DNA from: a virus
Virus record (IMG/VR): IMGVR_UViG_3300020020_000097
Span: 1 to 39,075 of that record
Strand: one strand, 5' to 3'
DNA length: 39,075 bases
The position numbers were made by a program, and so were the translations under genes. Position 1 is the stretch's first letter. Every line of letters starts with the position of its first letter. Under the pieces are notes generated by a model, which saw only the letters and a list, made by a program, of their open reading frames with translations, was not told the origin of the DNA and did no database searches. Shown one piece after another: positions 25,394 through 34,415 of the stretch.

Positions 25394-25441
25394 ATAGCAA
25401 AGCCCCCGACCACGCACGTCACTGGTCGGGGGCTTTGCTAT
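25394..25441. terminator. 19-bp-stem bidirectional terminator
   Basis: ATAGCAAAGCCCCCGACCA (25394-25412) pairs perfectly with TGGTCGGGGGCTTTGCTAT (25423-25441) around a 10-base loop. Both directions end with T-rich arms (CTTTGCTAT). It lies between the last rightward gene and the last leftward gene and overlaps the end of the latter. Confidence 0.92.
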
Positions 25442-25649
25442 GCCCTCTTTCGCCCCGCGTCTTGATGCTGGAGATCATCGCCGCCATGGCTGCGGTGAAC
25501 GAACCGATCAGCACGAACACCGACACCCAGGTGTTGCTCACGTCAGGGAACAGGACCACCACTAGTGCGATGGCGACCGCGAAGAACATCAGGGTGAAGG
25601 TGTGCCACACCATCTCCCATCGGGTCACGAACCGCCGCAATGCGCTCAT
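25419..25649 (-). CDS. Two-span membrane protein, holin-like
   Basis: A 76-residue protein: MSALRRFVTRWEMVW, span 1 TFTLMFFAVAIALVVVLF, a short loop, span 2 VSVFVLIGSFTAAMAAMI, and a basic polar tail SSIKTRGERGHSKAPDQ. Size, two spans and basic C-terminus suit a holin, and it is last in the tail operon, but no lysin is in the window to support this. ATG 25649 overlaps the stop of the collagen-like microgene (ATGA). Its stop lies in the terminator. Confidence 0.8.
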   Translation of the reverse strand: MSALRRFVTRWEMVWHTFTLMFFAVAIALVVVLFPDVSNTWVSVFVLIGSFTAAMAAMISSIKTRGERGHSKAPDQ

Positions 25650-25780
25650 GGCCCACCGGGGATACCATCAGTCCCGTCCAGACCGGGAAGACACGTACCC
25701 CCCAGTCGCCCGGTGATCCCCCATGGACCCACGGGTTCGGCTGGCCCTGGCGGGCCAGTCGGATCTGTTGGACCGTTCAC
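25646..25780 (-). CDS. 44-residue collagen-like (G-x-y) microprotein
   Basis: A short gene read from GTG 25780. After a first V-N the sequence is 14 triplets, 11 starting with Gly (GPT DPT GPP GPA EPV GPW GIT GRL GGT CLP GLD GTD GIP GGP). It overlaps the upstream gene (GTGA) and the downstream gene (ATGA), and GGGAGGATGAAGAACC is its ribosome site. So three independent signals support it despite its size. It has no signal peptide and one Cys. It could be a trimer-forming tail or lysis component, or a remnant of a collagen fibre gene. Function unknown. Confidence 0.72.
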   Translation of the reverse strand: MNGPTDPTGPPGPAEPVGPWGITGRLGGTCLPGLDGTDGIPGGP

Positions 25781-26031
25781 GGTTCTTCATCCTCCCGTCG
25801 GCGCCTGATCCGGGCCACCTCGGTGCGCCCCGCCATGTACCCGGCCACCAACCCGACCAGTGTGTTGATGATCTGTCCGACGATGCTGCCAGCAGTCGAG
25901 GTGTCGGCGCTCGGGGAGATTACGTGGACCACGACGATGCCGACCTGGCCCACGATGATCGCTACGCACACTGTGGCAGCCAGCATCATGACCAGCAGGT
26001 CTGCCGTGGAACGATCCTTGATCCACGACAT
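25777..26031 (-). CDS. Two-span membrane protein, holin-like
   Basis: An 84-residue protein with AGGAGGCCCG before ATG 26031. MSWIKDRSTADLL leads into a long span VMMLAATVCVAIIVGQVGIVVVHVI (shown in part), a Ser/Thr loop (SPSADTSTAG), and a second span SIVGQIINTLVGLVAGYMAG; the tail is charged (RTEVARIRRRREDEEP). This is the usual plan of small two-span holins. It may work with the other membrane protein at 25419-25649, for instance as a holin pair. Assignment is by shape only. Confidence 0.8.
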   Translation of the reverse strand: MSWIKDRSTADLLVMMLAATVCVAIIVGQVGIVVVHVISPSADTSTAGSIVGQIINTLVGLVAGYMAGRTEVARIRRRREDEEP

Positions 26032-26039
26032 CGGGCCTC

Positions 26040-26975
26040 CTAGTAGACCAGGGCGAGCACCGTGCAGTTGATCGGCGACGAGGGCAACGGCTGGCCGTCG
26101 TCCAAACGGTAAGCGATCCCCCGGATGCCCCCACCGGTCGGAGTCAGGATCACCGTGTACGGGGTGGCGATCGACCCGATGGTGCCGGTGGCTTGGGCGA
26201 CCGCCGAGATCACGCCCGCCCGGCCAGCGAGGTCGACGGCGGGGATCGCGTCGAACATCCCCTCCGTGTCGGTGATCTGCTCGACGTTCCGCACCATGAA
26301 CGTGACCCGTTGGACGCCCGTGTACGGCCCGGACTGCTGCCACATCTCCTGCCCGAGCATCGACAACAGGAAGACCCCGGCCGGTTCCCACGCGTCGCCG
26401 TCCCAGTAGTCGATCTTCCCCGGCTGGGTGTTCAGCACCGACATCGCGTTCAGCACCGGCATCGGGGAGGCTGCGGCTCGTGCGGCGTCGTCGTCGAACT
26501 TCCGCACGATCGAGTTCATCCCGGTATCCGACAGACCCAGTCCGGCGGCCGTGGTCCCCAGCATCCGAGCCGGGTCCTCATTGACCCCCAGTGGGGTGCC
26601 CGCCGACCCGTCGCCGGTGAGCGCCGTGTCGTGCTGCACCGCACCCGCCGCCGCCGTGGTGGGGGCACGGGCCGTCCACTGCGAGGTGGCGGTGTCCCAA
26701 CCAAGCACCTGTGCGTTCGTGGGAGCCGGTGCGTTCACGTCCGGGAAGTCGTTCAACTTCGCGGTCGCCGCGAACGTGACCTCGATCTGCCACGGCAACG
26801 CCACCGTGCCCATCCCGGTCAGCACCACGTCGAAGACCGTGTTGTCCTTCGCCTCCAACCCCACGTCGGCAGTGATCACGAATGGGTCAGCCGGGCTGCC
26901 CGTCCCGCCGATCTGGATGTGCGAACCGTTGTCGATCACGCACGAACAGGTCGCGCCTCCACAGCACCTAGGCAT
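26040..26975 (-). CDS. Minor tail protein with Cys-rich N-terminal module
   Basis: A 311-residue protein. Its start MPRCCGGATCSC is followed by IQIGGTGSPADPFVI, a version of the N-terminal module found also in the two genes upstream (26975-27259 and 27344-28171). The middle has repeats typical of tail fibre shafts (TALTGDGSAGTPLGVNEDP). The last 120 residues (VTFMVRNVEQITDTEGMFDA, AQATGTIGSIATPYTVILT) are a beta-rich head, probably for receptor or tail-tip contact. ATG at 26975 shares a base with the stop of the upstream gene (TGATG). Confidence 0.75.
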   Translation of the reverse strand: MPRCCGGATCSCVIDNGSHIQIGGTGSPADPFVITADVGLEAKDNTVFDVVLTGMGTVALPWQIEVTFAATAKLNDFPDVNAPAPTNAQVLGWDTATSQWTARAPTTAAAGAVQHDTALTGDGSAGTPLGVNEDPARMLGTTAAGLGLSDTGMNSIVRKFDDDAARAAASPMPVLNAMSVLNTQPGKIDYWDGDAWEPAGVFLLSMLGQEMWQQSGPYTGVQRVTFMVRNVEQITDTEGMFDAIPAVDLAGRAGVISAVAQATGTIGSIATPYTVILTPTGGGIRGIAYRLDDGQPLPSSPINCTVLALVY

Positions 26976-28258: not shown

Positions 28259-29518
28259 CTACGCCCAGGGGTTGAAGCCGCCGTTGCGGGGGGTGCCGTC
28301 CTTGACGGCGATGAGGTTGGCGAACACGTAGGGGATGTCGTAGTCGCGGTGCCAGTCGGAGGGGAAGCCGGTGAACAGCCGGGACACCTGGAACTTCGCG
28401 GTGATCTCCGGAACGTAGGCGGTGTAGTTCGGGTCGGTGTAGTACCAGAACGAGTTCTCGTTCCAGAACGCCACATGGGTGGGGTCTTGGAACGCGCCCC
28501 GTCCGTCGGTGGATGGGGTCATCGACAGCAGCATCCCGCCGGGCCGGAGCAACCGGTGAATCTCGTTCATCATCGCCACCTTGTCGGCGACGTGCTCCAA
28601 GAAGTCGACGGCCCGGATCACCCCCACCGACGAGTCGAACATCCCGGCCAGCGGTGCGGGGAAGGTGTGCACTAGGTCCACACCCTCACCGGCGTGCTGG
28701 TCTACCCGCAGGTAACGCGGGTCGGCCTCACCGTGGGCGCCACCCAGGTCCAGGCAGGGCAGGTTCTCTCGCTCCGCCCAGGCCAGGGCGGCTGGCTGGA
28801 TGGTGCGGTCGTACAGGTCCACCGTCTCGACCTGAATCCGAGGGTTGCGCTCCGGGTCCTTCTGCGTGTTCCCGTCGTGGGTGCGCTGAAGGTAGAGGAC
28901 TTCATCAACCAACCTGAAGGTTCCGACCTCATACAGCCGGGCCATCAGGTCTTGGTCGTCGAGGATGTCCCGGTCCGGGTTGTAGCCGCCCGCCTTGTCG
29001 TAGGCCAACCGGGTGAACGCCCGCAGGTGGTTCGGGGCGTACCAGATGTACGAGACGTTGTGCGGGGTCGGCTCCGGGGTGACCGGGTACTGGCGCCCGC
29101 CCGCTTTGCGGTAGCGCCACCCGTAGCCCTCCGCGTACGGGGTAAACGCTGAATCACCGGCGGCGTCGACCTCCGCACACTGGCTGTAGACCAACCCCGC
29201 GTCGGGGTACTGGTCGAAGGCCACGACGATCTCTCTAAGTGCCTCACGCAGCAGAAGATCGTCGTGGTCCAATTCCACCAGAATGTCGCCCCGGCACGCG
29301 ACGACAGCCTGCTGCTTGGCTTCCCCGACACCCTTGACGGTCCCGACCTTGACCACGGTCACCCGGTCGTCGGCGGGCGGTTCCCACTCGGCACCGTTGT
29401 TGAGCGCCACCACCCACTCCCACCGTTCGTAGGTCTGCGCGGTGAGCGAGTCGTAGCACTCGGTCAGGAACGTTGGGTCGTGGGACGGGGTGAACACCGA
29501 CACCAGTGGCGTAGTCAC
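28259..29518 (-). CDS. Fused glycosyltransferase (GT2) and SAM methyltransferase
   Basis: A 419-residue two-domain protein. Residues 1-215 are a GT2-type glycosyltransferase: LVSVFTPSHDPTFLTECYDS, WVVALNNG, the metal-binding ELDHDDLLLRE (about 81-91), and DDQDLMARLYE. Residues about 235-419 are a class I methyltransferase: motif I LPCLDLGGAHG, RVDQHAGEGVDLV, then RAVDFLEHVADKVAMMNEIH and LLRPGGMLLSMTPS. Methyltransferases of this type often modify the sugar just added. In a tail operon it may decorate the fibre proteins. GTG start, weak ribosome site. Domain calls are secure; the substrate is unknown. Confidence 0.88.
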   Translation of the reverse strand: MTTPLVSVFTPSHDPTFLTECYDSLTAQTYERWEWVVALNNGAEWEPPADDRVTVVKVGTVKGVGEAKQQAVVACRGDILVELDHDDLLLREALREIVVAFDQYPDAGLVYSQCAEVDAAGDSAFTPYAEGYGWRYRKAGGRQYPVTPEPTPHNVSYIWYAPNHLRAFTRLAYDKAGGYNPDRDILDDQDLMARLYEVGTFRLVDEVLYLQRTHDGNTQKDPERNPRIQVETVDLYDRTIQPAALAWAERENLPCLDLGGAHGEADPRYLRVDQHAGEGVDLVHTFPAPLAGMFDSSVGVIRAVDFLEHVADKVAMMNEIHRLLRPGGMLLSMTPSTDGRGAFQDPTHVAFWNENSFWYYTDPNYTAYVPEITAKFQVSRLFTGFPSDWHRDYDIPYVFANLIAVKDGTPRNGGFNPWA

Positions 29519-29527
29519 GGCCGCAGC

Positions 29528-29833
29528 CTAGCTTTGCGCCCCCTGCGACCCGTCGCCCTCCGGTGGTGCCAGCATCGGCTGCACCACCGACAGGATCATC
29601 CCGTCGGTGATCACGTCGTCACGGGCGCCCATGTCCGGGTTGTCGTTGACCGTCTGGGACGCCTTCGCGGAGTCCCACTGGGCGTCCCAGTTTCCGGCGG
29701 CCACGATCTGCCAGATGTTGTTGCGGGCGAACGAGAGTGGGTCGTCGGTGAACCCCTCCTCGGCGGCGGCAGCAGCCACCCTGTTGAGCAGCGACTCGGA
29801 AGAAGTCATCTCCACGATGGACTGGTAGGTCAT
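29528..29833 (-). CDS. Hypothetical 101-residue protein of the tail operon
   Basis: MTYQSIVEMTSSESLLNRVA begins a mostly helical protein with RNNIWQIVAAGNWDAQWDS in the middle and an acidic Pro/Gly tail. Proteins of this size and pattern occur next to tail fibre genes in actinophages, but I know of no role. AAGGAGAACCGC is the ribosome site. It may be a small tail protein or a chaperone for fibres. Confidence 0.75.
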   Translation of the reverse strand: MTYQSIVEMTSSESLLNRVAAAAAEEGFTDDPLSFARNNIWQIVAAGNWDAQWDSAKASQTVNDNPDMGARDDVITDGMILSVVQPMLAPPEGDGSQGAQS

Positions 29834-31100: not shown

Positions 31101-34100
31101 CTACGCATCGGTGTCGTACCACAGTTCGGTCATCGGGTCCGGTGGGGTGCCCGGTCCGACCCACACCTCGTCACGAGGCGGGTCAACATCCTGGGTGGGC
31201 TGGTATCGGATGACGTAGTTGACACCGAGGTAGCCGTTCTGAGAGTTCGTGGTGAACCCACCGCCACCGTCGGTGCCGGTCAGACCAGGACCGCCCGCGT
31301 GAGTGAGTCCACCATGGTTGTGAGAACCGCCGACACCGGAACCGTCGATGTCGTTGATCTTGGCGGTGCCACCGCTGGTGGGGGCGTTGTTCGAGCCGCC
31401 GTGGGTAGAGGCGTTGAGGCCGTGCTGGTGGTTCCCGACCGCGTGGTTGTGGTTCGGAATCTGGTGGGCGTGCTGCGGGTTGCGCTGCCATTCGATCAAC
31501 CCCTCGTTCCCGGCGAGCGGGACCGGGGAGTTCGCGCCGATGGGGTAACGACCGAGCAGGTCCGGGAGGTTGAACGTGGTGGTTCCATCGCCGACACCGA
31601 ACGTGGTGCCGATGACCCCGAACAGGTCGGTGTAGGTGGTGCGCGAGACGGCGGCGCCGTTGCAGTAGAGGTAACCCCGGGGAATGGCGCCGGAGGTCCA
31701 CGCCAAGATCGCGCCGACCGGCACGTTGCCGTACCACGTCCCGACGGCACCCGACGTGCCCTGCGCACCCTGTGGGCCTTGTGGACCGGTGCCACCAGCG
31801 GCGCCCGCCGCTCCTTGTGGACCCTGGGCACCCGTCCCACCCGTTGCGCCTTGTGGACCTGTACCTCCGGTGGCACCGACCGCACCTTGCGGACCAGTGC
31901 CACCTGCCGCACCCTGTGGCCCCGTCCCACCGACAGCACCCTGGGCACCGGTTGATCCCTGCGGTCCCGTCCCACCCACCGCACCTGCCGCGCCCTGTGC
32001 TCCGGTGGCCCCTTGTGTTCCGGTCGCACCTTGGGGACCGGTGCCACCCGCCGCACCTTGGGCACCGGTCGAACCCTGAGCGCCGGTCGCACCCTGGAAC
32101 CCTTGACGCCCCTGCGGACCTTGCGGTCCGGCGGCACCTTGCGCTCCGGTGAAATCGCCCATCAGGACCCAGGCCCCACCGACCTTCTGGTACCACTCGC
32201 CGGTGTCGGCGTTGATGTAGTAGTCGCCGTTCTGGCCCTGACCAGCCGTGGGCGGGATGGTGCCTTGGAGTATCTGCGAACCTCGTAGACCTTGGGCACC
32301 CTGCGGACCCTGGGCACCCGTCGCACCCTGAGCACCTGCGGCTCCTGCCGCGCCTTGCGGCCCTGTGGCCCCGACAGCACCCTGTGGACCCTGGGGTCCA
32401 GCCGCGCCCTGAACACCCTGCGTGCCCGTTCCGGTGGCCCCCTGGGGGCCTTGTGGCCCGGCGCCACCCACGGCACCTTGCGGTCCCGTTGCTCCCTGGG
32501 GTCCGGCAGCGCCCTGAGCGCCGGTCGCTCCCTGGGTTCCAGTGCCGCCCGTCGCTCCGGTGGCGCCTTGCGCTCCGGTAGAACCCTGGGCACCAATGGC
32601 CCCCTGCGGCCCCTGCGGGCCAGCGACCGTGGACGGCGCACCCTGCGGTCCGGCGCTGCCTTGCGGTCCGGTGGAACCTTGCGGACCCGTCCCCCCGGTG
32701 GCGCCCGTGGGTCCTTGGACACCCGTGCTGCCCTGTGCCCCCGTCGACCCCTGCGGACCCGTGGCACCGATCGGCCCCTGCGACCCGGTGGCGCCCTGCA
32801 CGCCCACCCCGACCACGCCCTGTGGACCGGTGAGACCCTGCGGTCCCTGGCTGCCGGTCGGCCCCTTGATGTTGGCGTCCAACACCCACGTCGTGCCGTC
32901 GTAGCGGTACACGTCGCCGTTGTCGAACAGGAACATGTCCCCGACGATCGGGGCAGGAACACTGCCCGTCCCCGGGGTGGACGGCGATTCGATGTACCAC
33001 GTCGAGGCGGGGGACGCGGTGGGCTTCGCCTTGATGATGTAGTTGACGCCCAAGTAGCCGTTCTGGGACTGCGACGTGGCACCGCCGCCACCGTCGGTCC
33101 CGGTGATCCCGGCGTTGGTGCTGGTCCCGCCGCCACCGGCGTTAGAGGTCGAGCCGCCGTGGTTGTGGGAGCCGTCGGTCCAGCCCTCGATGGTGCTGAC
33201 CCGGTTGATCCCGCTACCAGCCGAGGTGGCGGTGTTGGAGGCGCCTTGGTGGTTCGAGGGGTAGACGAGGTGACTGTGCACGTCGGTCGTGTGCCAGTGC
33301 AGGTCACCGGAGTGGTTGTGGTTCGGGATGGTGTGGGCGTGCTGAGGGTTCCGTTGCCACTCCACCAGACCTTCGTTCGCACCCAATGGAATCGGGGAGT
33401 TCGACCCGAGCGCGGTCCGGCCCATCAGGTCCGGGACGTTGAACGTGCTGACCCCGTCGCCGACGCCGTAGGTGGTCCCGATCACCGCGAACAACTCGGC
33501 GTAGTTCGCCCGGCTGACCGCTTGGCCGTTGCACAACAACCAGCCCTCGGGGACCGTCGGGCCATGCCCGCCCCACGCCTGGATGCTGCCGACCATCAGG
33601 CCGTCGTCGGCCCCGGTTCCCCCGCCCCCGCCACCGCCGCCGGAGATCGTGTAGGTCACGTCCTTGCCGACCGCCACCCCGGTGACGCCAGGACCCTGGA
33701 GGTTGAAGGAGTTGATGTCGGCGGCCAGCAGCAGGCCGTCGTATTTCGCGTCCACCTTCAAGGCCGACACGGTGGCCGGGTCCAGGTCGTCGAGGTCGAT
33801 CACGCCCGGCGCGATAGTCGGGTTCGGGTAGGTCCCGGTGAAGTCGCCCCCGGCGGCCCCCTTCGGTACACCGTCCACGGTGACCAGCACTTCACCCGTT
33901 CCGAGTGAGGCGACCACCCCGGCGCCGACGAAGTCCAGTTGGGTGGTGGGTCCGACCGGGACACCCTCGTCTTCCACGGTGATCTCGCCGGTACCGCCAC
34001 CACCGCCGCCGCCCTGCAACCACGGCGTGTAGTTGCGGGTGCCGTCCTCGTTGGTGACGAACGACCGGGTGAACAGGGCCGGGTCAGGGGCCGGGGTAGA

Positions 34101-34415
34101 AGCGGTGTCGATGTACTCCCAGACCCGCTGGAGGCCCTGCCCGATCGCGTTGGCCTGGACCAGGCCCATCCAGTTCCGGCTGTCGTCGGGGGAGTTGATG
34201 ATCGAGTCGGCGGTCGAGTAGAAGAACCCGTCCACGATCGGACCCTCGGAGTTCCAATCCTCCACCAAACGGGAGTAGACCCCGATCCCGGAGCCGACCA
34301 CGTCGGAGACCTTGGCGGGCTGCGGGCGACGCTCCTCGTGCATCAACCGCTTCTCGATGTCCCGCATCCAGTCGGACAGGTTCTGCGGCTGCCGCCAGGA
34401 GTTGTTCACGGCCAT
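31101..34415 (-). CDS. Large tail fibre with two collar domains and two collagen-like stretches
   Basis: A 1104-residue fibre protein. Residues 1-125 are a helical base ([20 protein letters not shown]). A poly-Gly linker and beta segment ([20 protein letters not shown], a fibre motif) follow. Collar domain 1 is about residues 273-458, collagen-like G-x-y blocks are about 518-708 and 757-892, separated by a [13 protein letters not shown] insert, and collar domain 2 is about 897-1071. The C-terminus is [20 protein letters not shown]. The protein would trimerise through collagen helices and expose collar tips. ATG 34415 follows GGGGGCC. The collagen part has many GPQ, GAT and GAQ triplets and is prone to length change. 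Confidence 0.92.

Follow-up and report, generated by a model that had tools for sequence, protein, structure and literature searches.

A collagen-like microgene of an uncultivated phage as a probable relic of a membrane-anchored collagen gene paired with a holin-like gene

Background

The lysis cassette of F1 mycobacteriophages contains the gene pair LysF1a/LysF1b, and the products of both genes are needed for efficient lysis (PMC13056207). LysF1a is a protein of 88 amino acids with two transmembrane domains, like the protein encoded immediately upstream of the collagen-like frame analyzed here, and LysF1b has a single N-terminal transmembrane domain, like the membrane-anchored collagen-like proteins that are encoded next to homologs of this upstream gene in related phages. 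However, LysF1b is predicted to adopt an N-out-C-in topology, and a collagen repeat is not mentioned in the abstract; the similarity between the two pairs is one of layout. The lysis cassettes of Gordonia phages encode small holin-like proteins with two transmembrane domains beside endolysins (PMC9671378); these resemble the upstream protein by description only, and collagen is not mentioned. Collagen-like tail fibers (PF01391; PHROG 'collagen like minor tail') have the G-x-y repeat in common with the frame described here; they differ in being large proteins of the virion that carry additional domains. A search of the literature for collagen in conjunction with spanins retrieved nothing relevant.

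Results

The DNA sequence analyzed here (hereafter, the window) is an IMG/VR virus record of 39,075 bases from an uncultivated bacteriophage. The minor tail proteins encoded in the window are related to those of phages of Arthrobacter, Microbacterium, Streptomyces and other actinobacteria, so the host is likely to be actinobacterial. The minus-strand arm runs from a partial tape-measure gene through the genes for minor tail proteins, collagen- and collar-bearing fibers, a glycosyltransferase-methyltransferase and a short fiber to the gene that we denote up, the collagen-like microgene and the gene denoted P0003. Among the fibers is a protein of 1104 amino acids (31101-34415, minus strand) whose sequence includes two runs of collagen repeat and two regions of the Collar type; the glycosyltransferase family 2 domain fused with a methyltransferase domain (28259-29518, minus strand) is encoded between tail fiber genes. 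The short tail fiber-like protein (26040-26975, minus strand) is encoded directly upstream of up; in L008, the closest relative, the tail arm ends at its homolog.

Both genes that flank the microgene encode small membrane proteins with a predicted two-helix hairpin, namely, up (25777-26031, minus strand; 84 amino acids, starting with MSWIKDRS) and P0003 (25419-25649, minus strand; 76 amino acids). The structure models of both proteins consist of two long helices, at moderate confidence (pLDDT 67 for up). The best that could be obtained for up in PHROG was a weak match to a holin (E = 0.031), and neither Pfam nor PHROG yielded a named family above the cut-off for this protein. In several relatives, an endolysin gene adjoins the member of the up family, in agreement with the proposal of an earlier note on this DNA that the frame belongs to a membrane-protein or lysis cluster. 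We refer to the up protein as holin-like, its holin activity being putative. A search of the window for M23 and Amidase_2 domains detected none. The searches made for relatives of P0003 found none. Between the convergent arms, over the 3' end of P0003, there is a perfect 19-bp inverted repeat with a 10-nt loop (25394-25441) that includes the last P0003 codons; it has no long T-run, was missed by a terminator scan that relies on T-runs, and is the probable end of transcription.

The microgene (25646-25780, minus strand) starts with GTG, spans 44 codons and ends with TGA. The encoded peptide, V-N-GPT-DPT-GPP-GPA-EPV-GPW-GIT-GRL-GGT-CLP-GLD-GTD-GIP-GGP, keeps a G-x-y register from residue 3 onward, with glycine in the first position of 11 of the 14 triplets; the other three triplets begin with D (GAT), E (GAA) and C (TGT), codons that differ from a glycine codon by a single base. 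Translation of the plus strand of the same segment is not collagen-like. The start of the microgene overlaps the stop of up in the sequence GTGA, and its stop overlaps the start of P0003 in the sequence ATGA. The Shine-Dalgarno region (25782-25796, minus strand) falls within the 3' end of up and contains GGGAGG approximately 9-10 nucleotides before the GTG; the pairing of this site with the anti-Shine-Dalgarno sequence, about -10.3 kcal/mol, equals in strength that at up itself (-10.2). The GTG start, the 44 codons, the 11 glycine triplets out of 14, the two overlaps and the microgene's own ribosome site had been described in the earlier note and are all confirmed, with the addition of the strand, which had not been stated. 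An alternative frame of 40 amino acids starting from the ATG at 25790 was discarded, as it would leave no space between the ribosome site and the start.

A second frame across the same gap is likewise open and the DNA is 66% GC, so an open frame by itself is uninformative. The collagen pattern is a different matter: leaving aside the tail fiber of 1104 amino acids, the microgene is the only run in the window with GGN in at least 11 of 14 codons, and none of 40 dinucleotide-preserving shuffles of the window produced such a run. The match to the Pfam Collagen model (PF01391) is weak (E = 0.0034, 17.6 bits, below the curated cut-off of 27.2 bits). With 44 codons and no further domain, the microgene does not have the hallmarks of a tail fiber, that is, the size of a large virion protein and trimerization or tip domains.

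A minor tail protein profile retrieved 80 viral loci, one of which, L038, contains a homolog of up; profiles built from up retrieved L093, L094, L095 and L096, then L101 and L102, and a search of whole records added a homolog in G001, the record to which L008 belongs and in which the pair is also covered by L105. The minor tail protein of L008 is 66% identical to that of the window, and among the relatives with full-length records G001 is the closest. In all eight of these other viral records, the gene that comes next after the up homolog is collagen-like, and this is the exact slot that the microgene occupies immediately after up in the window. The collagen gene of L094 is cut by the end of the contig; hence, seven complete proteins were compared, those of L093 (6252-6764), L095 (6243-6773), L096 (2405-2947), L038 (3586-4203; 205 amino acids), L101 (5270-5761), L102 (5206-5667) and G001/L105 (3748-4398).

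The seven complete homologs consist of 153-216 residues and combine one N-terminal membrane anchor and approximately 26-49 G-x-y triplets with a C-terminal segment containing two cysteines, CPxGF...PGGQ...C, that is conserved in all of them. The hydrophobic anchor was detected in each of the six homologs tested, and the seventh, from G001, shows one in its sequence; the profile of the C-terminal segment matches all six homologs used to build it, and G001 carries this segment too. Against Pfam Collagen, three of the full-length homologs score 49-60 bits. No named family above the cut-off was found for the non-collagen parts of the anchored protein, so the generic collagen match is the only one for the pair. 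As in the window, up and the collagen gene overlap by 4 nucleotides in four of the seven complete cases (L093, L095, L096 and L101); the overlap is 11 nucleotides in L102, 17 nucleotides in G001 and zero in L038.

M23 peptidase or amidase domains are encoded in the same record as the pair in five cases (G001, L093, L096, L101 and L102), and the hydrolase is close to the pair by gene position in four (L093, L096, L102 and G001). In G001, the pair ends a run of amidase, peptidase, nuclease and holin-like genes, and the tail arm there ends without the pair. In L011, a different membrane protein is encoded at the end of the tail arm.

When the microgene, up, P0003 and the neighboring fiber genes were each used as a single query, next to nothing was retrieved; the tblastn result for the microgene carries no information, since low-complexity repeats are masked by BLAST. 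A tblastn search of 50,697 phage records with up and its collagen partner found neither, the collagen part being probably masked, which restricts the search with the partner to the ends of the protein. In the stretches examined of cultured phages with related tail proteins (Arthrobacter phages Tank and BruhMoment, Microbacterium phages Hyperion and MementoMori, and phages of Gordonia, Rhodococcus and Streptomyces), no homolog of up was found, and other small genes are present among their membrane proteins. Two scans of bacterial genomes found nothing.

Compared with the full-length homologs, the microgene lacks a hydrophobic segment and the C-terminal CPxGF...PGGQ...C segment. Its peptide has no export signal, and searches of the window with the anchor and C-terminal-segment profiles found no convincing remnant, with nothing near the microgene. 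In codon-position G+C (0.79/0.76/0.52), it is similar to the collagen parts of six homologs (0.84-0.90/0.72-0.82/0.37-0.64), unlike the ordinary genes of the window genome. Glycine positions are replaced in 3 of the 14 triplets of the microgene versus 2 of 229 in the homologs, by automated parsing (p = 0.0014), and both replacements in the homologs are threonines within an 'STV' interruption. When the first GPT-DPT is counted as a linker, the changes in the microgene amount to 2 of 12 (p = 0.013), and when the phase breaks of the homologs are counted as well, the difference yields p = 0.08. The signal of relaxed constraint on the glycines is therefore moderate, given that the p value shifts with the counting and that the homologs are not all independent, the L093 and L095 proteins being 76% identical. 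The short form is seen in the window only, and a second genome with such a form was not encountered. The search of relatives for a short G-x-y frame, which the earlier note had proposed as a check, recovered a collagen gene in the expected slot in all eight records with an up homolog and the short form in none.

Discussion

The reading that we favor, with somewhat better than even confidence, is that the microgene is a shrunken relic of a holin-adjacent, membrane-anchored collagen gene that has been kept open as a bridge for translation from up to P0003. The repetitiveness of collagen precludes a homology test at the sequence level, so that descent is inferred from position. Under this scenario, the ancestor would have been a full-length membrane-anchored collagen gene, the regular downstream partner of up and, in several phages, part of the lysis cassette. 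This gene would have been reduced to a short collagen stretch, with the loss of the N-terminal anchor and of the two-cysteine C-terminal segment, most simply by two deletions, one at each end, and with replacement of the glycines already begun, so that the shrunken peptide probably does not form a working triple-helical rod. Ribosomes would run from up through the microgene to P0003, by termination-reinitiation at GTGA and at ATGA. Of the eight starts examined in the window, that of P0003, which overlaps the microgene's stop, has the weakest ribosome site (-6.2 kcal/mol); among 14 tested gene pairs with this kind of overlap, 13 showed strict coupling (PMC6728339). From these considerations, the microgene is probably still translated, and the constraint that remains on it would be the carriage of ribosomes. 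Such a role would explain why the frame is open and has well-placed ends while the glycines are loosened. The earlier suggestion that the peptide regulates the membrane proteins would survive only in this form, as a translational bridge to P0003; that of a trimerizing tag is unlikely for a peptide that carries neither an anchor nor an export signal and in which the G-x-y run is broken.

An alternative that we deem unlikely, and yet the first to be weighed, is that the microgene encodes a functional, deliberately short collagen microprotein that acts with both membrane proteins, for example, as a cytoplasmic antiholin-like or scaffold peptide. The strong ribosome site, the exact 4-nt overlaps on both sides, the intact frame and the retention of the G-x-y pattern in 11 of the 14 triplets are all compatible with such a function, and the short form could indeed be a derived and functional gene. 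However, all seven complete homologs are anchored and possess the C-terminal segment, whereas the peptide has neither an anchor nor an export signal, which makes a rod that works outside the membrane unlikely, and G-x-y is interrupted three times within 42 residues.

It appears quite improbable that the microgene is a piece of the nearby tail fiber collagen captured by recombination and unrelated to the anchored collagen genes. The fiber of 1104 amino acids, with its two long collagen runs, is indeed encoded only some 6 kb away in the same genome, but its collagen is rich in Gln, Ala and Thr (GPQGATGAQ...) and lacks the triplets with Pro, Trp and Leu that occur in the microgene, and the slot after up harbors a dedicated collagen gene in 8/8 relatives. 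Hence, of the earlier idea of a remnant of fiber recombination, the remnant appears to stand and the fiber source does not. We give very little credence to the possibility that -1 frameshifting adds the collagen stretch to the C-terminus of up or to the N-terminus of P0003: the frames are at -1 to each other at both overlaps, but neither junction contains a slippery heptamer, and the collagen protein is encoded as a separate gene in the homologs. A chance G-x-y-looking frame within GC-rich non-coding DNA, to which the shortness of the frame, its openness at 66% GC and the Pfam score under the cut-off would lend themselves, is hardly credible in view of the shuffles, the uniqueness of the run in the window outside the fiber gene, and the agreement of its position and overlap with the conserved collagen gene.

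The conserved full-length pair is the more interesting result, whereas the microgene itself, a probable relic, is only modestly so. Analysis of the microgene revealed a recurrent pair that is unnamed in the libraries used, a holin-like protein and a membrane-anchored collagen, in several cases beside cell-wall hydrolases. Tentatively, and with a confidence well short of even, we propose that this pair constitutes a lysis module, as yet undescribed, of actinobacterial-type phages, in which the two-helix holin-like protein would be translationally coupled to an anchored collagen rod with a two-cysteine tip. This rod might function in the thick Gram-positive wall in the manner of the spanins of Gram-negative cells, and the window phage would have stripped it to a short open frame between two membrane genes. 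The spanin-like role is speculation from the anatomy of the full-length protein. If the pair does act in lysis, collagen would be used there outside the virion, and the window would provide a test case for the dispensability of the collagen partner.

Several further genes in these loci deserve mention. A small gene whose product begins alike in the two genomes (MTYQS/MSYQSI...) is located among the fiber genes in the window (29528-29833, minus strand) and directly before up in L101 (4684-4977). In the lysis regions of relatives, a gene of the endonuclease/exonuclease/phosphatase type (PF03372) is found near the pair in L102 (4308-4988, E = 2.6e-7), in L101 (5905-6618, a weak match) and in L105 (2534-3229, recognized by eye). 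Finally, L013 (153-890) encodes a protein of 245 amino acids, preceded by a small membrane protein and followed by tail genes, in which an anchor and a collagen region are combined with a long stretch that looks helical and a two-cysteine C-terminal segment; this protein may be another relative of the anchored collagen family.
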